Under the pieces are notes generated by a model, which made no database searches, had not been told where the DNA came from, and saw only the letters and a program-made list of their open reading frames with translations. The translations under genes and the position numbers were made by a program. A stretch of 20,513 nt of DNA from a virus: the IMG/VR virus record IMGVR_UViG_3300007537_000440, positions 1-20,513 of that record, one strand, 5' to 3'. Shown here one piece after another: positions 4,234 to 18,195 of this stretch. Positions within the stretch are counted from its first letter, which is position 1. Each line of letters opens with the position of its first letter.

Positions 4234-4497
4234 TTACATCTCCTTTAATGGATACCAATACTGGATTTTTTGAATGTCATACATTTTTGGATCCATAATT
4301 GCGTGTTGTCTTGCTACATAAGCAACATGAATATTCCAACCTATTATAGAACCCCACACAAGTATTTTTTCATGGGTGTCTGGAGGAAGCTCAGTTGAGG
4401 TTGAGATCATGTGCTTAAACTCTGGAGCTTCTTGAATAGTTTCAGTTTTTTTCTTGCGTTTTCTCTTCTTTTTCTTTTTATGTACATCAAAACCCAT
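4234..4497 (-). CDS. Small protein with polybasic head and DUF551-like C-terminus
   Basis: This is an 87-residue protein. Residues 6-17 are nearly all Lys/Arg. The rest contains ELPPDTHEKILVWG and ends QYWYPLKEM, which resembles the DUF551 pattern (a 'LP-x-x-x-x-VLVW' segment and a terminal 'WMPLPE') found in many phage and prophage small proteins. No function is established for that family. ATG at 4497 comes two bases after the stop of the HD-domain gene. The polybasic head may be a DNA-binding addition, as in several neighbours. Confidence 0.65.
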   Translation of the reverse strand: MGFDVHKKKKKRKRKKKTETIQEAPEFKHMISTSTELPPDTHEKILVWGSIIGWNIHVAYVARQHAIMDPKMYDIQKIQYWYPLKEM

Positions 4498-5024: not shown

Positions 5025-5608
5025 TTTTTACGCCTTTTCTTCTTGTTATAATTTATAAAGTATGAGGGTTTACACCATTTTAAAAAAAGACCAAAATTCA
5101 ATGCAATGAAATTTCTTTTGATATATTCAGAAGTCGTCATGCTGATTGTAAATCCTTCATATCTTCCAAATACATCTTCAAGCAACCAAAATAATTCTTC
5201 GGGCAAGACGATTATTTTTTGTCGTTTATCACGCTTCGCAATGATTACTGGATAGGTGTTTGCTGTTTCTGCATCTTCAACTACCTGCTCAACAAACGTT
5301 TCAAATATCTGCTTTGTTCTTTGTTCTTGATTCCATTGTTTTGGAGGATGATCTAGTACATCAAGAAAAGACCAGTTCTTATATCCACGTTTCATTTCAA
5401 TGGTTGTTATATTTGTTAGAGGAAGTCCTATTGGATCTGTAGCTTTTAAATCTCCGTAAGCTCCGAAAGTTTTCTTTCCTTTTCGTGATCTGCCTTTTGC
5501 TCTTGAACCACTGTCATGCCGCCAGAAGATATCATCTCTTTTACCGTTGCTCCACCATAATGAAAGTTCAGTACAGATTTCACGTTCAAAAGTGCTTCCT
5601 TTAGCCAT
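5021..5608 (-). CDS. PD-(D/E)XK nuclease, Holliday-junction-resolvase-like
   Basis: This 195-residue protein opens with AKGSTFEREICTELSLWW, then GAYGDLKATDP and TIEMKRGYKNWSF. Together these give the PD-(D/E)XK active-site pattern: a helix glutamate, an Asp in GD, and E-x-K. A basic RAKGRSRKGKK loop sits between the first two motifs and the tail is KKKRRKK. The arrangement matches a phage and bacterial family of small nucleases related to archaeal-type Holliday junction resolvases; the exact substrate is not shown by the sequence. ATG at 5608 directly follows the stop of the dCTP deaminase gene (TAAATG). Confidence 0.8.
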   Translation of the reverse strand: MAKGSTFEREICTELSLWWSNGKRDDIFWRHDSGSRAKGRSRKGKKTFGAYGDLKATDPIGLPLTNITTIEMKRGYKNWSFLDVLDHPPKQWNQEQRTKQIFETFVEQVVEDAETANTYPVIIAKRDKRQKIIVLPEELFWLLEDVFGRYEGFTISMTTSEYIKRNFIALNFGLFLKWCKPSYFINYNKKKRRKK

Positions 5609-6106: not shown

Positions 6107-6236
6107 TTTTCTTCCACAGTCTTTGACTTAGATTAATGATTGGATGAAGGTGCTTGTCAGTGATTCAAAACAAACACCTTCATCCGCTTCAGGAACAAAC
6201 AGTCATCAGTAGAAACTAGATGACGGAGGGAACTGC
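6107..6236 (-). promoter_or_regulatory. Non-coding stretch with two hairpins
   Basis: No gene fits these 130 bases. They hold a long inverted repeat with arms at 6142-6157 and 6170-6185: 16 pairs, one of them G-U as RNA, around a 12-base loop. A second hairpin lies at 6202-6224, with six pairs, a bulged A, three more pairs and an AGAA loop. Neither is followed by a U-tract on either strand, so intrinsic termination is not supported. Possible roles are an RNA processing or stabilising element between two operon segments, or a protein-binding site ahead of dcd. Confidence 0.6.
6142..6185. repeat. 16-bp inverted repeat (hairpin)
   Basis: The left arm is GGATGAAGGTGCTTGT and the right arm ACAAACACCTTCATCC, separated by 12 bases. 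Eleven outer pairs are perfect, followed by one G-U/T-G position and four more pairs. It is symmetrical enough to fold on either strand. Confidence 0.85.
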
Positions 6237-7321: not shown

Positions 7322-7815
7322 GATGTTTTCCCATTAGAAAAAGACATTATAAGATTTGTGCCCTTTTCAGAATAGCTTGCTGCTTTTAATCCCACTTTTG
7401 CTGCTTTCTTTTTCAGCAACTGCTTGTCAAAACCATTGTAATGAAAATTTTCTTTATATCCCTGCCCACCATACAGTTTCTTTACAACTTTTTCAGTTGG
7501 TAACTCTCCAGTAAAATACTTGTAAGCAATATCAAGAAGATTTGGCACTCTGATCTCAATGATGCAGAATGGTTTTAATACTCTTGTCCACTCATATAAC
7601 AAAGATTCTGCCGCACAAATAGGAAAGTGTTCAAGAATATCGCTTGCAAGCACATATTCAAAAGTATTGTTTATAAATGGAAGTCTCTCTGCATCACCTA
7701 TCACATTGACACCAATAGTCTCTCGGATATCGTAGTTAATGCATTTGATCTCATCAGAAGGATAGTGTTCGTAAATTCTTTTACCACTTCCTATATTAAG
7801 ACAGAATCTATTCAA
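7318..7815 (-). CDS. Class I SAM-dependent methyltransferase
   Basis: This 165-residue protein uses a TTG start at 7815 inside the end of the recombinase gene, with AAAGGA about ten bases upstream. It shows a SAM-binding motif I (CLNIGSGKR), an acidic motif II region (INYDIRE), GDAERLPF and the post-motif LASDILEHF, as in Methyltransf_11-type small-molecule or protein methyltransferases. No DPPY or Cys active site of a DNA methylase is present, so the substrate is open. It lies between two DNA-metabolism genes. Confidence 0.8.
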   Translation of the reverse strand: MNRFCLNIGSGKRIYEHYPSDEIKCINYDIRETIGVNVIGDAERLPFINNTFEYVLASDILEHFPICAAESLLYEWTRVLKPFCIIEIRVPNLLDIAYKYFTGELPTEKVVKKLYGGQGYKENFHYNGFDKQLLKKKAAKVGLKAASYSEKGTNLIMSFSNGKTS

Positions 7816-10183
7816 ACTTCTTTTTCCTTTTCAGTTTGAGTTCTTCTTCAAAATCATTCCAACATGCACCGACCATTTCTTTTAATTCATTTTCAAGATT
7901 ATTATCCTCAATGTGAGAAACCAGTTTTTGTTTTGATCCCTCAAAATCGAGTTCTGGAACTTCGTACGTGTTTTTCTTCTTCTTTAAAACACCCATTGAA
8001 TCGAGATAAGCGACACAGGATTTGATGTCATCAACTCCATAATCATAATAAATAGGAAACGTTGCTTCTCTGCGTTTGCCTGTCTGACGATTCTTTTCAA
8101 TTTTCGCCATTGAATTGACACCGATCATCGTGTCTTTTGATTTCTCTTTCTTTCCAAGAGCTAACCAAATTTCATGCCATGAATAAAACTTTAGTGCTTT
8201 GCCACCGCTTCGAGTCTTCTTGGAGAAAGACATCATACTTAGATTATCTCTGGTTTGTGATATGATTATGACTATAGAGTTTGTCTTCTTGATATCAATG
8301 TTGATGTCGGATAGTAATTGACTTGCTATTCTTGCTTTAGCAGTTCCGTAGCTTCCTTTAGAAGCAGTATCTTTTTTCCATGCTTTGTACATCTCATCAA
8401 TATGCTTTTGATCTTCTTCAGAAGTAACGGAATCAAATGAATCAAGGATATAAATAAAGGGTTTGTCCCCTTTTAGCGCATCTTTTATATGCATGTGAAA
8501 ATCTTGAACAGTGACAGAGCTAATCGGTTCTTTGTTCTCATCATATCTTGGCGCTTCAAGACGTTTTACAAGTTTCTTTCCAAAAAGCTTTTCCTTATCA
8601 AAATCTTCACCACACTCAGCATCATCAAAGATCAGTTTATAATCATCAAAATCTGATAACTGAGCGACTTCAGCAAAACATGTGAGTGCAAGGATTGTGT
8701 TGTGACTAACAAATCCATTGCTCCAAAATAAATGGGTTTCTGGTATATGAAAGTCATACACTATTGTTTCTTCTTCTTTTTCTTCTCGCTGAAATATTTT
8801 ATCAAAATGATAATCAGAATTTAAAAGACTTTTATAAAACGACATGTTTATTGGAAAATCAGAAAAAGAGACTATGAATTTTTCAATCATCTCCCACGAC
8901 GCGTTTGAACAGCCTCCAAATTTAAATCTGGGAAATCTTTTTTTATGTTTTGTACAAATTCCATTTTTTTTCCATCCCACTTTTCTTCTTGCTAATCTTA
9001 TATCTTTTTTCATTTTATTAACTAAATTGGGGACAGTATCATAATCACTTTTGCGTTTTCTACTTTTTTTAGGAAGATCATATTTTAAACTTCCTATGAT
9101 TTCTAGATATTTATTTATGTCTTCTCCGTATATAGACACAGACCAATACGAATGATCATGATAATTTGTTCCGTCAAAGGCTCCAATTTTCTCTTTTCTG
9201 GAAGACAGAATACCTAGATTAAGAAGCATTAATTGAACTTGCATTGAAAGTTCTTTTGAAGAAGTATAGTAAGAAATACCCCTATCAGAAGCCCATCCAT
9301 CACAATCAATCAATGCTTTTAAAAAATGCACTTGTATTTCCTTGCTTCCCGATAAAATACAGTCAGGAACATATTTATTTCTTGCAGTAATATTTGATTT
9401 TGTATTGAACAAAGACATCATTACAGCAGATAGATGGACGCTGCTGATTGTGTTTATTTTACTGAAATGCAGCCCAAAAACAGAACATATTTTATTAATT
9501 CTATCTTGAACATATGGTTTTGTGTTTGGAATGGCTATTGATCGTGGCTTATCTCCTACAATAAAAGAACCGTCAGCTACAATATAGCCCATAAGTTCAG
9601 CTACATTTTTATCCATGTATTTTGGAAGGTTTGCTGTTATTACATTTGTTGTATCTATTTTTACTTTTGGTATTTTTGTTTTTTTATTTGAGAAGTGATG
9701 AACTCCTTTTGCAATAACAGCAATATCATCCACTTCAACATCTTTTAATTTTTTCATTTCAAATTCAAAAGACATGAAATTATAAACCATAATAGGATGG
9801 CATTCTGTACCTTCAATCTCAAATCCGTGTCTTGTTTTTATTTTTATTGTTTTTTGTACTTCTTCTTTCCAGAAATGTGATGTGGTTTCTTTTGTGCTTT
9901 TATCGACTGCAACAGTATCCACATATTCTGAAAGTCCTAAAGCTTTTTCTTCCCCAATATTGTCTATTTTTGAAAGTCCGTTTGAATTTAGCACATATGC
10001 ATTTTTTACACACTTTCCGGCTGAACTGTCACCTATGAGATTAACTATTCTTCCTTTTCTAAAACCACCGAAAGGATTGTCAGCAAGAGCGCAGTTTAAA
10101 AGTGTGCTGCCTGTTGGGATTAATGAGTCGTATGGATTTTCTCTTTTGTTTGAAGAGCGTTTCTTCTTTCGGCGTGAGGTCAT
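7808..10183 (-). CDS. RecA/UvsX-like recombinase precursor with in-frame intein
   Basis: This 791-residue precursor is interrupted inside the P-loop. The N-extein (residues 1-57) ends GDSSAGK and the C-extein (496-791) starts TILALTCF, so splicing restores GDSSAGKT and a 353-residue recombinase. The C-extein has an acidic DDAECGEDFD segment, Walker B (FIYILDSFDS), a GSYGTAKARIASQLL loop and the VIIISQTRDNL segment typical of RecA-family proteins. A highly basic N-terminus (MTSRRKKKRSSNKR) and tail (KRKKKFE) may aid DNA binding. Expected role: strand exchange and recombination-dependent replication with the gp32-like SSB. ATG at 10183 directly follows the lipoprotein stop. Confidence 0.92.
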   Translation of the reverse strand: MTSRRKKKRSSNKRENPYDSLIPTGSTLLNCALADNPFGGFRKGRIVNLIGDSSAGKCVKNAYVLNSNGLSKIDNIGEEKALGLSEYVDTVAVDKSTKETTSHFWKEEVQKTIKIKTRHGFEIEGTECHPIMVYNFMSFEFEMKKLKDVEVDDIAVIAKGVHHFSNKKTKIPKVKIDTTNVITANLPKYMDKNVAELMGYIVADGSFIVGDKPRSIAIPNTKPYVQDRINKICSVFGLHFSKINTISSVHLSAVMMSLFNTKSNITARNKYVPDCILSGSKEIQVHFLKALIDCDGWASDRGISYYTSSKELSMQVQLMLLNLGILSSRKEKIGAFDGTNYHDHSYWSVSIYGEDINKYLEIIGSLKYDLPKKSRKRKSDYDTVPNLVNKMKKDIRLARRKVGWKKNGICTKHKKRFPRFKFGGCSNASWEMIEKFIVSFSDFPINMSFYKSLLNSDYHFDKIFQREEKEEETIVYDFHIPETHLFWSNGFVSHNTILALTCFAEVAQLSDFDDYKLIFDDAECGEDFDKEKLFGKKLVKRLEAPRYDENKEPISSVTVQDFHMHIKDALKGDKPFIYILDSFDSVTSEEDQKHIDEMYKAWKKDTASKGSYGTAKARIASQLLSDINIDIKKTNSIVIIISQTRDNLSMMSFSKKTRSGGKALKFYSWHEIWLALGKKEKSKDTMIGVNSMAKIEKNRQTGKRREATFPIYYDYGVDDIKSCVAYLDSMGVLKKKKNTYEVPELDFEGSKQKLVSHIEDNNLENELKEMVGACWNDFEEELKLKRKKKFE
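8699..10012 (-). mobile_element. Intein with LAGLIDADG homing endonuclease in recombinase P-loop
   Basis: This is a 438-codon in-frame insertion. It begins with Cys58 (CVKNAYVLNSNGLSKI, block A), has a block B GTECHPI, and ends FVSHN before a Thr as first extein residue. The His-Asn end and nucleophile are therefore all present. The endonuclease part has two LAGLIDADG-like helices, AELMGYIVADG and FLKALIDCDG, both keeping the acidic residue. It should be competent for splicing and homing. Insertion between GK and T of Walker A is a classic intein site in RecA-type ATPases. Confidence 0.93.
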
Positions 10184-10441
10184 TTATTTTTTCTCCGACT
10201 CTTTCTTTTGTTCTTCTTTTTTTGTTGTCTTGGTATTTACTGTTGGAATAGTATACTTATATTTTTTACCATCAACTTTGAACATGTGTGTTACATCCTG
10301 CCGAAGAATAACTGTGCCGTCTTTTTTCTCCGCTACCTTATTCCAGTTTGCTTCTGAAAACCTCACAACATTTTCTTGTGTCGCAGCACATCCAATTGTA
10401 AGAACAGAAACCAAAAGTAAAAACAAAGATATTTTATACAT
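10184..10441 (-). CDS. Small predicted lipoprotein
   Basis: This 85-residue protein starts MYKISLFLLLVSVLTIGCAA: a Lys, a hydrophobic stretch, and then a cysteine preceded by T-I-G, a near-lipobox with Leu at -4. After the cysteine come about 45 ordinary residues and a Lys/Glu-rich tail. It is likely exported and lipid-anchored. A lipoprotein inside a phage replication operon might act in superinfection exclusion or envelope modification, but nothing in the sequence proves that. GGAGG lies eight bases before ATG, and a promoter-like sequence lies about 30 bases further upstream. Confidence 0.75.
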   Translation of the reverse strand: MYKISLFLLLVSVLTIGCAATQENVVRFSEANWNKVAEKKDGTVILRQDVTHMFKVDGKKYKYTIPTVNTKTTKKEEQKKESEKK

Positions 10442-10471: not shown

Positions 10472-10500
10472 TTTATATTTTTTTCACTAATCTCGTGCAA
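10472..10500 (-). promoter_or_regulatory. Possible sigma-70-type promoter before the lipoprotein gene
   Basis: Reading on the minus strand, TTGCAC (10500-10495) is followed after exactly 17 bases by TATAAA (10477-10472). The -10 box matches five of six consensus bases and the -35 only three, but the spacing is ideal. It lies just after the structured RNA and would restart transcription for the lipoprotein and recombinase genes. Confidence 0.4.
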
Positions 10501-10514
10501 TCTTCATATAAAAA

Positions 10515-10696
10515 TGCGTCTCCTTGCCAGGTCGCTCGGTTGCCGATGTCTGCGTCTGTAGCTGGTACCTAGTCTCCGGAAGCGTCGCCAGCTTCACCGC
10601 GCCCTTATCCCTCCCACGAAATCTTAGCAGGGAGAGAGTTTGAAACCCCGGCATAAAACGTCCTCTTAACGAACCGCCCTCGCTGAAGGAGACGCA
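10515..10696 (-). ncRNA. GC-rich structured RNA candidate, unidentified
   Basis: About 180 non-coding bases stand out as GC-rich in an AT-rich region. The ends form a perfect 11-bp helix (10515-10525 with 10686-10696; TGCGTCTCCTT as read at the 5' end of the RNA). Inside are AGCTGG/CCAGCT (10560-10565 with 10588-10593), an 8-bp UCUCUCCC/GGGAGGGA helix with one G-U pair (10608-10615 with 10630-10637) and a small UCGG-CAA-CCGA hairpin. After the closing helix, the minus strand runs into TTTTTATAT, terminator-like. No long open frame crosses it. It does not look like tRNA, tmRNA or RNase P RNA. The minus strand is preferred because all genes read that way. Function is unknown. Confidence 0.65.
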
Positions 10697-10707
10697 CCCC
10701 CTATAAA

Positions 10708-11793
10708 CTATTCATCATCGTTTTCATCATCTGATTCACTTGCTTCCTGACAATCAGCCCATTTTTCACAGTCGCCACACTCGTCGTATTCATCGACATC
10801 TTCTCCAAAAGTATGTCCATAGGGACACTCATTTGCAGCAACTTTTTTCTTATCGTTTTTCTTGGAAGAAGACTTCTTACTCGATTTCTTAGATTTTGAT
10901 TTCTTCGGCTTCTCTTCTTCCTCGTCCTCATCATCATCTTCTTCATCCTCATCATCTTTTTTCTTGGATTTTTTGGAAGATTTCTTGCTTGATTTCTTGT
11001 TCTTCTTTTTTGACGAAGACTTCTTTGGTTTTTCTTCTTCTTCCTCATCATCAGAGGATTTCTCTTCCTCTTCCTCTTCTTCCTCTTCGTCGAGATCGTA
11101 CAATGCTTTTTGCAATGTTTTGTAATCCTGAATTACCATTAAACTATCCAAATCAAAAACATCGTCAAGAATGTCCTCTTCGTAATCCTCTCGATCATCA
11201 AATTCTATCTTTCGGGTTTCAAAAAATTCATTACTTCCAAATTTCTTTTTTCTGAATGAAACTGAAACTGTCTTACCACTTTCAAGCTCCGCAAAACCAC
11301 CAAGATCGTCATCACCCTCATTAATTTCTTCATCTAATGCTTTTCCAAACAAATGATAACTGTATTCAAAAAGCTGAACGCCTTTGTCTTGATCATCAAG
11401 ATTGATGATATTATAAAGTTCCCGTTCTTTTGCTTTGATGTTTTTAGCGAGGTCAACGTCGTTGTCATCATCACTATTAAACAATTCTTTTACATGTTCG
11501 CAAATTGGACAGGGTTTCTTTATTGTTTTTGGACAAATAAAAGCGTTACTATCATTACCAATTCCGTAATGAACAAAGAATGTACGTTGATACCAAAGCT
11601 CTCCCTTATCAACTTCAGGGTGTGTTGTGACTGATACTTGATAGGGCAAGAAGTCTAAATTATATGTACCCTTTTTTGGTTTAAATCGTTCTGTACCTTC
11701 TGGAAGATTTAAATAAGAACTTCCACCCCTATTCATGTTGCGTTCCGCTTTCTTCTTTGCTCTGTCCTTCATTGAGCCTTTACCTTTGGCCAT
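10708..11793 (-). CDS. gp32-like single-stranded DNA-binding protein with long charged tail
   Basis: This is a 361-residue protein. The core (about residues 40-225) has ERFKPKKGTYNLDFLPYQV, then ICPKTIKKPCPICEH (C87, C95, C98 and H100, a zinc site as in T4 gp32), and an OB-fold-like body (YHLFGKAL, GKTVSVSFRKKKFG). From residue 234 on it alternates Glu/Asp-rich and Lys/Ser-rich blocks, followed by a second zinc-like cluster (C323, H326, C339, C342, C348) and an acidic end. An acidic C-terminus in this family recruits partner proteins. GGAGGAACTG precedes ATG at 11793, which overlaps the membrane protein gene by 14 bases. It likely coats ssDNA for the polymerase and recombinase here. Confidence 0.85.
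   Translation of the reverse strand: MAKGKGSMKDRAKKKAERNMNRGGSSYLNLPEGTERFKPKKGTYNLDFLPYQVSVTTHPEVDKGELWYQRTFFVHYGIGNDSNAFICPKTIKKPCPICEHVKELFNSDDDNDVDLAKNIKAKERELYNIINLDDQDKGVQLFEYSYHLFGKALDEEINEGDDDLGGFAELESGKTVSVSFRKKKFGSNEFFETRKIEFDDREDYEEDILDDVFDLDSLMVIQDYKTLQKALYDLDEEEEEEEEEKSSDDEEEEEKPKKSSSKKKNKKSSKKSSKKSKKKDDEDEEDDDEDEEEEKPKKSKSKKSSKKSSSKKNDKKKVAANECPYGHTFGEDVDEYDECGDCEKWADCQEASESDDENDDE
10840..11092 (-). repeat. Low-complexity repeated charged blocks in the SSB tail
   Basis: Two related units, each Glu-rich, then EEEEKPKKS and a Lys/Ser-rich run (near residues 251-279 and 291-317), look like an internal duplication of roughly 40 codons. The repeats are in-frame. They also create long Arg- or Ser-rich openings in other frames that are not genes. 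Confidence 0.6.
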
Positions 11794-13055: not shown

Positions 13056-14000
13056 TTATTCTCTAAGTTTTTCGTAAGCTTCGTAGGCGTTTCTGACAAG
13101 CTCATTCTTTGCATCAATACTATAATAAGGGGTGCTAAAAGCATTTAAAACAATCTGACCCCCCTCATCCCCGTTTAAAAGTACGGAAGCAAAGTATGAT
13201 CGTATTGTACGGCGGGTGACTTCTGGATCATCAGACAATTCTTTTAAAATAGAAGCAAGTTTTTTCCAATCTTGTCCATCCATTATTGCCCTACACAAAG
13301 CAATTGCTCTCTCACGCTTCTCTGCTTCTTGTTTTGCAGCATCAAGCATGTCTTCAGTTTCCAAGTGCATAATTTTTTCAAGAATCTTTATAGCATCTCT
13401 TGGATGTCCAAGTGAATCCCTTGCGATTTGCAGCGCAACTTTTTTCTCAAGCTCTATTTCTTCATTTTCAGCTATAGACTGTAACAGAGAGTAAATCTGT
13501 TTGTCTGATAGTGTTTGTACTTGATACTGAACGCATCTGCTTTTCACAGTATCAAGAATCTTTTTTGGATCAGTTGTGCATAGAAAAAAATAGACATGAG
13601 AAGGAGGCTCTTCAAGTGCTTTGAGTAGTCCGTCCTGTCCTTGAGGTGACAGACGATGACAATTATGCACAGCAACATCTTCAGCAAAATATGACGGATG
13701 CTTTTCAACCTCCAGATCATAAAATTCTATAAATCCTTTACTTCTTTCTTGATCTCCAATAATACTTTTGAAAGGTCGTTCATTATTTCGTTGTTTGTAA
13801 ATCTCAATACTTTCCAATCTAATTGTTTTAGTTTGTCCTCTTTCTTTTTGTCTTTTTTCTTCTGTTTTTTTGTGTTGTGCCCCTTTCCATCTATTTCTAT
13901 AGCTACTTTGAGTTTTGGGTTGCCAATGTCTACTTTGTAATTTGTTGGGTATTCTTTCTCTCGTTTTTCGCGTAGAGGAATAGGGTATTCTGGCTGCCAT
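13056..14000 (-). CDS. Clamp loader ATPase, C-terminal part with C-terminal intein half
   Basis: The last 201 residues (13056-13661) are the C-extein, starting CHRLSPQGQDGLLKALEEPP, with the sensor-1 TTDPK and the SRC motif (VKSRCVQYQV) of DnaX/RFC-type loaders. Just before it is a C-terminal intein half: EFYDLEVEKHPSYFAEDVAV ending HN before Cys+1. The start shown, ATG at 14000, is the only ATG in this frame after the amber at 14238, but it has no ribosome binding site, and most of residues 1-75 overlap the homing endonuclease gene. A start nearer 13760, entry by frameshift, or readthrough from the N-terminal part are alternatives. Splicing with the N-terminal part would give a 323-residue loader that opens the sliding clamp. 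Confidence 0.85.
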   Translation of the reverse strand: MAARIPYSSTRKTRERIPNKLQSRHWQPKTQSSYRNRWKGAQHKKTEEKRQKERGQTKTIRLESIEIYKQRNNERPFKSIIGDQERSKGFIEFYDLEVEKHPSYFAEDVAVHNCHRLSPQGQDGLLKALEEPPSHVYFFLCTTDPKKILDTVKSRCVQYQVQTLSDKQIYSLLQSIAENEEIELEKKVALQIARDSLGHPRDAIKILEKIMHLETEDMLDAAKQEAEKRERAIALCRAIMDGQDWKKLASILKELSDDPEVTRRTIRSYFASVLLNGDEGGQIVLNAFSTPYYSIDAKNELVRNAYEAYEKLRE

Positions 14001-14521
14001 CCCAAAGCAGAAGACAAGATTTTTTGAGGAACAGTCAATTTGCCATTTCCACCCCTCTGACCTAAGAAAACGTTCAATGTACCATTTATACGTTTTGTTT
14101 CTCTTGCTTTTTTGATGCTTTTTGGATTGTTCATAGGGTTGTTTTTCTTCATTCGCAAAGAATTTTGCAAGCGTAAATTTGGACGTCTGTTTGCTGTTGT
14201 AACTGCTTCTGATATTCTTTGCCTTGTTTCTTTGCTTCTATTTTGTCCCGTTCGTGTTTTCCCTGCTAATTTGTTTCCACAAATCTTTGAACAAGTAATC
14301 ACATGATTTGATTTTTTTCGCGTGAAGATTTTTCCGCAAACAGGACATTTTCTTTTTTCTGAAAGTCCTTGTCCAATTTTCCAAGCTTTTAATTTTCCTG
14401 AACAACTTTTTGAGCAGGTGTTTCTTTTTTTGAATCTCTTGATTGTTTCGTTCTCTCGTCTTTTTAATTTTTCTCCACAAACCAAACAGTATTTTTTTCT
14501 TATTCTTCGTAATTTTTTCAT
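13727..14521 (-). CDS. Free-standing EDxHD (Vsr-like) homing endonuclease inside the intein
   Basis: This 264-residue protein starts with ATG at 14521 behind a clear GGAGG six bases upstream, in a different frame from the clamp loader. Two zinc-finger-like modules come first: YCLVCGEKL with TCSKSCSGK, then KCPVCGKIF with TCSKICGNK. A basic helical region with NUMOD-like RQRISEAVTTANRRPN follows. The C-terminal nuclease domain has AIEIDGKGHN, KKEDKLKQLDWKVLRF and NNEI, matching the E-D-x-H-D pattern of Vsr/DUF559-related homing endonucleases. It likely cuts the intein-free clamp loader allele to spread the element. Confidence 0.85.
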   Translation of the reverse strand: MKKLRRIRKKYCLVCGEKLKRRENETIKRFKKRNTCSKSCSGKLKAWKIGQGLSEKRKCPVCGKIFTRKKSNHVITCSKICGNKLAGKTRTGQNRSKETRQRISEAVTTANRRPNLRLQNSLRMKKNNPMNNPKSIKKARETKRINGTLNVFLGQRGGNGKLTVPQKILSSALGWQPEYPIPLREKREKEYPTNYKVDIGNPKLKVAIEIDGKGHNTKKQKKKDKKKEDKLKQLDWKVLRFTNNEIMNDLSKVLLEIKKEVKDL

Positions 14522-15197
14522 TCTTGTCCTCCAATGCAAAAGTTTTGTTTTGCAACATATCATCATTGAAGGACAAGATCAAGTCATCTTTTGTAAGATT
14601 TATTGCTTCTACTTCTCCGTTTTGTGTATAAAATACATGTTCTTTTGTTGTGAATAAATAATTGCCATTTGAAAAATTTAATTTTACGATTCTATCAAGA
14701 GATACTTTATTGCAAAAAACATGTTGTACTTTGTCCACTCCATTTAAAGAGTAAACTAAATCTCCTACTTTAAAATCTTTTATTTTTTTATTTCCATATG
14801 GTGTTTTTATTTTTGTATCGGAATGAAAACACTCATCCATGATATAAACTTTTGAAGAGCCTCCGAAAGGTTTTGTTGTCATTTTTCTTCTAATTTCACG
14901 AACAAGATCAATGCCCGTAAAATCAGCGATATCAATTTCTTTGAGATCATATGGGGAGCAATTTAATTCCGAAGCAAAGATACGCGCAAGTGATGTTTTT
15001 CCGCTTCCAAAGGGTCCGCTAAATAGAACTGCGTGAGGAATGCTGTTTTTCTTTAATACTTGTTTCAAACTCTTCTTTAGAAGAGCATTTCCAAAAAATT
15101 CATCAATATTCTTTGGTCTGTATTTTTTTGTAAGATCGAGTTCGTTTGGTATTTCTTTTTCTTCTTCGATCTTCTTTCTTTTTCTTTTAGCGGACAT
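14238..15197 (-). CDS. Clamp loader ATPase, N-terminal part with N-terminal intein half
   Basis: Residues 1-122 are the N-extein: a basic head (MSAKRKRKKIEEEKE), LTKKYRPKNIDEFFGN as in RFC/DnaX loaders, Walker A (SGPFGSGKTSLARIF, residues 60-74) and the first part of Walker B (KVYIMDE). From Cys123 the intein N-half runs to about residue 210 (FKVGDLVYSLNG, TTKEHVFY). The last 100 or so residues are Lys/Arg-rich, overlap the endonuclease gene out of frame and end at TAG 14238. ATG at 15197 follows the stop of a small membrane protein gene whose end supplies GGAGA. There is no DnaX zinc finger. Confidence 0.88.
   Translation of the reverse strand: MSAKRKRKKIEEEKEIPNELDLTKKYRPKNIDEFFGNALLKKSLKQVLKKNSIPHAVLFSGPFGSGKTSLARIFASELNCSPYDLKEIDIADFTGIDLVREIRRKMTTKPFGGSSKVYIMDECFHSDTKIKTPYGNKKIKDFKVGDLVYSLNGVDKVQHVFCNKVSLDRIVKLNFSNGNYLFTTKEHVFYTQNGEVEAINLTKDDLILSFNDDMLQNKTFALEDKNEKITKNKKKILFGLWRKIKKTRERNNQEIQKKKHLLKKLFRKIKSLENWTRTFRKKKMSCLRKNLHAKKIKSCDYLFKDLWKQISRENTNGTK
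14528..14532 (-). promoter_or_regulatory. Ribosome binding site of the nested endonuclease
   Basis: GGAGG, six bases before ATG 14521. It lies within the clamp loader/intein reading frame and shows the endonuclease is translated independently rather than by in-frame fusion. Confidence 0.85.
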
Positions 15198-15436: not shown

Positions 15437-15449
15437 GATCACCTCCTTT
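15437..15449 (-). promoter_or_regulatory. Full-length Shine-Dalgarno sequence
   Basis: Thirteen bases match the complement of the 16S rRNA tail (anti-Shine-Dalgarno and flanks). It overlaps the polymerase stop codon by one base and serves the 25-residue membrane peptide. Confidence 0.8.
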
Positions 15450-16861
15450 CAATGAATGTATTCAAGAATTGTGTTTGTTTGGTTCCAATTACCATTTAAT
15501 TCAGAACAATCTACTTCAAGTTCCAAGGGTGTAATAATAAAATCCCAATGATCTTTTATCTCATGACACATGACCTGTTTCATAAGATCAAGAAAAGGAT
15601 TAAGTTCATCTTTTGGAACATCAGCAATAATCGAGTCGTGAATTTGAGATATTAATTTAGCCTTCATTTTATACTTCTTTAGCAGATAATTAAGTCTGAT
15701 GATACTCCAAAGTAAACAATGAAAGCATGCAGATTGGATTGGATAGTTCACAGCATCATTTTTTGTCATAACCCCTTGAAAAGTGAAACCGCTTAAAGAT
15801 GTAAGATAGCCGTGATTAATATACCATTGATATTGTGTGTCTTTCCATTTCCTATATACTGGAAAACTTTCATACCACATATGTTTTTCTACTTGCTGCA
15901 CATGCTTCTCAAACTGTTTGTAGTTCTTGATTCCTTGATCTATTAAATGCTGCCCAGCAGTTTTTTCGTTTGATAATTGTAAACCCTGATCTGCTTTTAT
16001 TTTTCTGCCTTTTAATTCAGCCCAGTTCCAAAGACTCACGGCATTATTTCTATAATAATCACCATAAAACTGTGGAAAAGTGAAACCATTCTTAGTGCCT
16101 TTTCTTAACTGTTTGTCGCCTTTTGTATGCAGATCATAATTCTTGAACCTGAATATTTGGGACATAAAATCTGCGTGCATGTCAGCAGTTTCAGGATTTC
16201 TCAAATAACCAAGCATGGTAGGATCATGATGATACCATGATGATCCCTTAATTTCCACACCACCATAGTCACCTTCTATAAAATACGAATTTTCTCGTGC
16301 AATGAATGCTCTGCGAACATATTTTCCTGCTTCTGGATCACGTACAGGCATGTTCTGTGCGTTTGGAAGTTGTGATGAGGATCTGAAAGTGCGGGCAGTG
16401 TTTAGATTATACATTGGATGTAAGAAACCATCACACGTTTCAGACAGTAAATTTTTTATGTACGTGGATTTTATTTTAGACAGTTTTCTATATTGAATAA
16501 GATCGTCAGTAAACGAGAGTCCAAGAGCTTCAAGAGCTTCACGATCTGCTGCTGGTCTTGGATTCTCTTCATTGTCTGTGTATTTTAATGGTTTATATCC
16601 AAACTCATTGAAAAGGATATCAACAATCTGATCAGTTGAATCCAAATTAAATTTGGATTTATATTTCTTTCTCCATTCTTTGATTTCTTTATGATTTTCT
16701 ACATCACGTTTCTTTTGCTTGATCTTTTTCCCAAGTTCTTTATAGACTTGCTTGCAATAATCAACATCGATTCGGATACCGTTCATCTGCATATCGGACA
16801 ATGCTAAAACACCGTCATGCAATAACTGATATCCTTCTTTATTATAAGGAACTGATTGCAT
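15449..16861 (-). CDS. Family A DNA polymerase, polymerase domain only
   Basis: This 470-residue protein begins at the thumb/palm region (LSDMQMNGIRIDVDYCKQ) and has TARTFRSSSQLPNAQNMPVR, motif A EGDYGGVEIKG (Asp198, Glu203), motif B RKGTKNGFTFPQFYGDYY (Lys257, Tyr266) and motif C SQIHDSIIADV (Asp409). Compared with E. coli PolI, Gln708 is replaced by Gly, motif B is one residue longer, and the Glu after the motif C Asp is Ser. It has neither the 5'-3' nor the 3'-5' exonuclease domain; these are on separate genes (6467-7321 and 16861-18195). ATG overlaps the upstream stop as TAATG, so polymerase and proofreading protein are made together and may associate. Confidence 0.93.
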   Translation of the reverse strand: MQSVPYNKEGYQLLHDGVLALSDMQMNGIRIDVDYCKQVYKELGKKIKQKKRDVENHKEIKEWRKKYKSKFNLDSTDQIVDILFNEFGYKPLKYTDNEENPRPAADREALEALGLSFTDDLIQYRKLSKIKSTYIKNLLSETCDGFLHPMYNLNTARTFRSSSQLPNAQNMPVRDPEAGKYVRRAFIARENSYFIEGDYGGVEIKGSSWYHHDPTMLGYLRNPETADMHADFMSQIFRFKNYDLHTKGDKQLRKGTKNGFTFPQFYGDYYRNNAVSLWNWAELKGRKIKADQGLQLSNEKTAGQHLIDQGIKNYKQFEKHVQQVEKHMWYESFPVYRKWKDTQYQWYINHGYLTSLSGFTFQGVMTKNDAVNYPIQSACFHCLLWSIIRLNYLLKKYKMKAKLISQIHDSIIADVPKDELNPFLDLMKQVMCHEIKDHWDFIITPLELEVDCSELNGNWNQTNTILEYIH

Positions 16862-18195
16862 TATTTTTTCTTCTTTTTCCTTTTGGTTTTGACAGGTCTT
16901 TGCTCTTTACGAATTGCTTTAACTTGCGGACAGAAATCAAGTCCAGATTTTCCCTCGTATAAATGTGAGTAATCGATCCCGATAATATCCATTTGAACAA
17001 GTCCGAGTCTAAACTCTGTCATCGAGTCCATACCGTTGTAGATCAAAAGTTCTTTTAAATCGATTTCGTCAGCATCATTTAAATCATTTCCACCCTTACT
17101 ATTTTTTAAGAGCTTTTTTAAATGACGATCATATGGAGGGATTCCAAAATAAGCATAATTTTGATAATCAAGACTTGTAATTCCTTTTCTGTTATCTACA
17201 AAATGTGCGCCGATTGTTGTGTCATAGAAAAGACCGTTTAGAGGAACTCCTACTTTTACGTGCGTCCAATCTCTCTCGTATTTCATGTTCGCACAGATTT
17301 TCTTAATTCGTGGAGTAGATAAATAATGTGTTAAAACGTCAACAAATTCAAAGTCGTCCATAAACATAGGAAACGCAGCAGCATGATCTGGTCCATAACT
17401 AATAGAACACGTCTTTATTTTTTGTTCTGTGCGTTGTGGCTTTAATCCAGTCGTTTCATAATCAAAGGCGGTGAGTGTTATGTTGTTGTTAAAGAGATTG
17501 CGTATCCATTGCGTAGCTTCATCAGGGTGCTTTATGATTTCTATCTTACTCTCTTCATTCTCATCAAAAGAAGGAAGCGGAACATCAAGCATTTTGATTG
17601 CGTGTTTGAGATCATCTTTGAAAAGTCTTTCAACAACTTCTGGTGATGAATCACGCATAACATAACTTGGATGAAATGTGGGGCAAATCCAAGCATTATA
17701 TTCTCTATCTGGAATAACTGTGCCTCTCCATTTTGTGATGCCCCCTACTTTTTCCTGAAATCTTGGCTTGATCAAAGATTCTACAGCACAATCTCCAAGT
17801 GCGATTATTACATGAGGTTGAAATTCTTTTATTGTCTTAAGTAGATTTGGATGGCACGCATCAATTTCTTTTGTTTTGGGTTTTCTGTTCTTTGATGGTC
17901 TGCAATTAATAGCGTTTGTTTTCAAACAAGCATTCAGTTCTATTCCTAATTTTCTGAGTATTTTGGAATAGAACTGTCCTGCTTGCCCAATCAATTGCTC
18001 ATTCTTCAAATCCTCGTTCTTTCCCGGAGCCTCAGCCACATGGAGTATCTTAATCTCTCCACGTCCTGTAGGCTGCATCTTAGGACTCTTGCATTGTTTA
18101 TACAATTTGCAAGAACCACAGTGAGCAATTGAATTGTTTGTTTTGCTAATTTTTTTGGATCGTACTTGTGATGATTTGAAAAAACCTTTGGTCAT
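16861..18195 (-). CDS. Uracil-DNA glycosylase (family 4-like) fused to 3'-5' exonuclease domain
   Basis: In this 444-residue protein, residues 20-205 resemble an iron-sulfur uracil-DNA glycosylase: CGSC (26, 29), HVAEAPGKNED, IGQAGQFYSKIL, NCRP (98), a fourth Cys at 114 and a TFHPSYVMR motif. These four Cys are the expected 4Fe-4S ligands. Residues 235-405 are a DEDD exonuclease as in PolA: TAFDYETTG (Asp245, Glu247), CANMKYERDW (Asp309) and YNGMDS (Tyr386, Asp390). The end is polybasic. The protein would combine uracil removal or sensing with proofreading for the polymerase encoded next. ATG at 18195 has GAGGT upstream. Confidence 0.9.
   Translation of the reverse strand: MTKGFFKSSQVRSKKISKTNNSIAHCGSCKLYKQCKSPKMQPTGRGEIKILHVAEAPGKNEDLKNEQLIGQAGQFYSKILRKLGIELNACLKTNAINCRPSKNRKPKTKEIDACHPNLLKTIKEFQPHVIIALGDCAVESLIKPRFQEKVGGITKWRGTVIPDREYNAWICPTFHPSYVMRDSSPEVVERLFKDDLKHAIKMLDVPLPSFDENEESKIEIIKHPDEATQWIRNLFNNNITLTAFDYETTGLKPQRTEQKIKTCSISYGPDHAAAFPMFMDDFEFVDVLTHYLSTPRIKKICANMKYERDWTHVKVGVPLNGLFYDTTIGAHFVDNRKGITSLDYQNYAYFGIPPYDRHLKKLLKNSKGGNDLNDADEIDLKELLIYNGMDSMTEFRLGLVQMDIIGIDYSHLYEGKSGLDFCPQVKAIRKEQRPVKTKRKKKKK

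Follow-up and report, generated by a model that had tools for sequence, protein, structure and literature searches.

A GC-rich insert in the loop of a putative terminator hairpin behind the ssb gene of an uncultivated virus

The stretch of DNA analysed here (20,513 nucleotides; hereafter the window) is a 20.5-kb record of an uncultivated virus whose replication and recombination genes all lie on the minus strand. These genes encode a sliding clamp, a split family A DNA polymerase, a clamp loader, a single-stranded DNA-binding protein (SSB), an intein-bearing recombinase, an exonuclease, and a dCTP deaminase. The ssb gene (10708..11793, minus strand) encodes a phage single-stranded DNA-binding protein of 361 amino acids matching PHROG 1192 single strand DNA binding protein (E 3e-15); against cultured phages, the protein gave nothing beyond one distant partial match. 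Its long tail (window 10708-11100, minus strand) is rich in Lys, Ser, Asp, and Glu and terminates in the cysteine-rich motif CPYGHTFGEDVDEYDECGDCEKWADC. Downstream of ssb lies an 85-amino acid gene with a lipoprotein-like N-terminus (10184..10441, minus strand), for which family searches gave no significant match, and the next gene but one after ssb encodes a RecA/UvsX-like recombinase with a LAGLIDADG intein (7808..10183, minus strand). Between the ssb stop codon (10708-10710, minus strand) and the start of the lipoprotein-like gene (10441) is a 266-nt gap holding a GC-rich segment, in agreement with the location given by an initial annotation of this DNA. Elsewhere in the window, an intein-like segment and an HNH/DUF559-like nuclease frame interrupt the clamp loader gene (13056-15197), with the pieces in overlapping frames. 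The family A DNA polymerase is divided into two genes (15449-18195), and the start of the upstream one (16861-18195) appears, from its sequence, to resemble a candidate uracil-DNA glycosylase region.

On the minus strand, the strand of the genes, the GC-rich segment spans 192 nt (10701-10510) and is laid out as GGGGGUGCGUCUCCUU, 160 nt, and AAGGAGACGCAUUUUU. The 5' arm, GGGGGUGCGUCUCCUU (10686..10701), starts 6 nt past the ssb stop codon and is separated by the GC-rich insert (10526..10685) from the 3' arm, AAGGAGACGCAUUUUU (10510..10525). The initial annotation had described a perfect 11-bp closing helix and a U-rich 3' end, and both are present. The helix consists of 11 Watson-Crick pairs (10515-10525/10686-10696), with pair probabilities of about 0.99 in this core, and reaches 16 bp when the G-U pairs possible on the minus strand are included. 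The last five bases of the 3' arm (10514-10510) form a short UUUUU run, followed by AUAUG, that overlaps the outer G-U pairs of the helix and is present on the minus-strand transcript only. Shuffling the segment 20,000 times produced a perfect 11-bp helix joining the ends in 3 cases, but the ends had been picked to fit the helix. Three further perfect 11-bp inverted repeats (within 300 nt) are carried by the window.

The GC island in this AT-rich genome, also reported in the initial annotation, is real: the insert has a GC content of 58.8%, compared with 35.5% for the window. Its place is ordinary, and its size is unusual. Exceptional internal structure was not confirmed. Folding energy gave z scores of -2.4 for the whole 209-nt stretch and -1.8 for the 192-nt segment, and the interior without the closing helix gave z = +0.59 (p = 0.71) on the minus strand and z = +1.34 on the plus strand. 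When the real arms were kept and the insert was shuffled, the sequence folded equally well (p = 0.64). Because the interior without its helix is comparable to shuffled sequence and shuffled inserts fold just as well, the folding signal lies in the arms and not in the interior, which is no more structured than its composition predicts. The tRNA-like loop of one relative (L105, described below) also has a z score of about +1, so free energy alone is insufficient to exclude a structured RNA in the insert.

The insert matched no recognisable RNA class, as the initial annotation had stated. Rfam searches of the window gave no matches at the gathering cut-off and two chance-level matches (E 5.9) at permissive thresholds. 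ARAGORN called no tRNA or tmRNA, tRNA and tmRNA covariance models gave no match up to E 10, and neither a T-arm motif nor a D-arm was found. BLASTN of the segment against phages and plasmids returned chance matches only or none. A covariance model built from the single sequence, which is a weak probe for distant relatives, matched nothing but the window in searches of 41 and 91 sources, which contained the window, and of 34 whole records. Two exact-pattern scans of viral contigs, with patterns taken from the insert and the arms, returned nothing, and no second copy of the segment is present within the window.

We then turned to the same site in related genomes. Queries with the SSB and the recombinase yielded about 140 loci belonging to related viruses and, in some cases, to bacterial contigs assembled from metagenomes; ssb is followed by the recombinase gene in most of them, and a strong helix often lies within a few dozen nucleotides of the ssb stop. 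No homologue of the insert was found in these loci, as in phages and plasmids. Helices were counted with a simple stacking-energy score in 100 distinct relatives, the window among them, with dinucleotide shuffles and 210 ends of other genes from the same loci as controls. A helix of -20 kcal/mol or stronger starting no more than 30 nt past the ssb stop was found in 49% of the 100 relatives, compared with 4.9% of the shuffles and 5.2% of the 210 gene ends; about half of the relatives are without such a helix. By the same energy criterion, helices with a loop of at least 30 nt occurred in 21% of relatives, 4.2% of shuffles, and 3.8% of other gene ends, and at -24 kcal/mol the corresponding values were 10%, 0.6%, and 1.0%. 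A T-rich tail (at least 5 T in 10) followed 53% of the strong short-loop stems, against a background of 12%, and 35% of the strong long-loop stems (n = 20). Given this 35% and the other 11-bp inverted repeats of the window, some of the long-loop stems are chance pairings or have other roles, and some of those surveyed (for example, in L029 and L046) run into coding sequence of recA and may have no connection with the rest. In a further locus (L039, about 4296-4423), an ordinary ssb terminator is followed by a second element of about 120 nt with a near-perfect 17-bp closing helix (intergenic z -6.3).

The closest kin of the window on the SSB tree, L050, L047, and L049 (70, 73, and 68% identity), form a supported clade with it and carry post-ssb hairpins with loops of 4-6 nt. 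Another near relative, L055, has a short hairpin with a 4-nt loop at the same site, and the somewhat more distant L051 and L053 have loops of 55 and 53 nt. Long loops required 19 changes on the SSB tree for 20 rows, at least 10 of them on supported branches, and their clustering was no greater than with shuffled labels. Because the nearest kin have short loops and large ones turn up in separate parts of the tree, the 160-nt loop is best explained as an older hairpin that was enlarged in this lineage, although short post-ssb hairpins turn over too fast for alignment. The insert would then be younger than the hairpin and may have no function of its own. The suggestion of a structured RNA without known kin is not borne out: no insert homologue was found, the stability of the interior is unremarkable, and in the nearest relatives short hairpins take its place. 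A recognisable new structured-RNA class is therefore not supported by these results.

The closing helix, the U-run, their position, the enrichment of post-ssb helices in relatives, and the short hairpins in the nearest kin lead us to read the segment, with moderate confidence, as the hairpin at the 3' end of the ssb transcript, probably a Rho-independent terminator, whose loop has been stretched by the 160-nt GC-rich insert. The initial annotation had offered a cis-regulatory element or an abundant processed RNA; the first is supported by the terminator-like hairpin of relatives at the same site between ssb and the recombinase gene, and the second is a less likely reading taken up below. The two arms would pair behind RNA polymerase into a helix of 11-16 bp and, together with the U-run, cause the ssb transcript to end or thin out, which would lower downstream expression. 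The terminator, possibly leaky, would in this way keep SSB, which is needed in large amounts, above the downstream recombinase; termination and this excess of SSB are suggested by position and analogy.

The segment has the GC-rich coding-strand helix just past a gene that marks intrinsic terminators, and a U-tract, although short, directly after it. Intrinsic terminators have loops of 3-13 nt with a median of 4 (PMC12207403), whereas the loop here is 160 nt. A loop so far from the median should slow hairpin formation, and therefore termination may be weak, or the hairpin may merely protect the 3' end. A standard terminator scan found no short-loop terminator-like hairpin on the minus strand between ssb and the lipoprotein-like gene. 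In phage T4, gene 32 (ssb) is followed by GGGGACCCTAGAGGTCCCCTTTTTT, a textbook terminator at this place, and a terminator downstream of gene 32 was predicted in five of six T4-like genomes (PMC1524935). The window shares with these a co-directional helix and then a U-run directly after ssb, but the T4 loop is only a few nucleotides long, whereas that of the window is 160 nt and GC-rich and its U-run is shorter.

The post-ssb slot of several relatives holds tRNAs or tRNA-like sequences. In L105 (5034-5138), the Rfam tRNA model scored 36.2 bits (cut-off 29) on a sequence with an enlarged anticodon region, for which ARAGORN makes no call. L059 (4343-4548), another AT-rich genome with a GC-rich island, has a 16-bp helix and U5 around a 174-nt loop containing a tRNA T-arm and pieces resembling a tRNA-Leu D-arm; the kin of L059 are too distant to provide an alignable copy. 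A tRNA-Met follows ssb in L078 (2980-3110), and complete or tRNA-like sequences also occur after ssb in L128 (3500-3730), L089 (5285-5422), and L135 (about 5140-5215). Several of these sequences have enlarged or missing anticodon regions. Like the segment of the window, those of L105, L059, L078, and L135 are GC-rich, of similar size, and in the same slot, and L105 and L059 also share the extended closing helix followed by T; unlike them, the window lacks a T-arm, a D-arm, and a tRNA model match. L056 (3471-3804) encodes a tmRNA upstream of ssb (Rfam 104.8 bits).

Because tRNA-like sequences fill such loops in relatives, a passenger RNA within the terminator is an alternative worth keeping. 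The ssb-terminator loop might, on a speculative view to which we give a small share of belief, be a place where GC-rich RNA genes land repeatedly in this group of viruses, tRNA-like in some members and, in the window, an orphan of about 160-190 nt, co-expressed with ssb and delimited by the terminator arms. Equally doubtful in our judgement is an independent small RNA gene, or a 3'-UTR-derived small RNA, of about 190 nt that is co-transcribed with ssb, ends at the U-run, is released by processing, and functions in trans. In bacteria, small RNAs are released from mRNA 3' ends and end at the terminator of the gene. The segment shares their position and U-rich end, and its GC island, closed ends, and the tRNA or tRNA-like content of the slot in L105, L059, and L078 fit such an RNA; against it, no conserved seed or homologue was found, the interior is no more stable than shuffles, the nearest relatives lack the insert, and the window shows no similarity to tRNA or any other Rfam family.

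An insertion of foreign DNA or a small mobile element, with terminal inverted repeats that form the helix and no role as RNA, would explain the foreign composition, the inverted ends, the TTTATA 6-mer flanking the segment on both sides, and the missing counterpart in the nearest relatives. We consider it improbable, as such a 6-mer comes cheaply in AT-rich DNA, neither the window nor the two exact-pattern scans of viral contigs provided a second copy, and the helices at the same place in relatives would be left unexplained. Far less credible still is a short acquired gene whose GC content reflects its origin. An open frame of 55 codons (10487..10654, minus strand) with a good Shine-Dalgarno sequence (AAGAGGA) lies mostly within the insert and continues through the 3' arm, and a frame this long with a Shine-Dalgarno sequence arose in 0.5% of shuffles, although it was noticed after the fact. 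Its third-position GC is 0.61, compared with 0.23-0.39 in the genes of the window, its codon log-odds are negative, and another frame outscores it on codon usage. It matched no family, its best phage match had E 1, and its message would be cut by the proposed terminator. With codon usage unlike that of the window's genes and no family, the frame is probably not a gene.

Reading the segment as a terminator with a stretched loop gives the conspicuous GC island an ordinary explanation. The comparison also shows that a post-ssb hairpin, as in T4, is widespread in a large group of viruses of which hardly any have been cultivated. Standard finders miss terminators whose loops are so large; if functional, they would be stop signals that have gone unnoticed and might also carry small RNAs. 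A near-perfect 16-bp hairpin without a clear U-run also lies on the minus strand between the dCTP deaminase-like gene and its upstream neighbour (window 6142-6185), and the 181-nt fold around it has a z score of -4.4.
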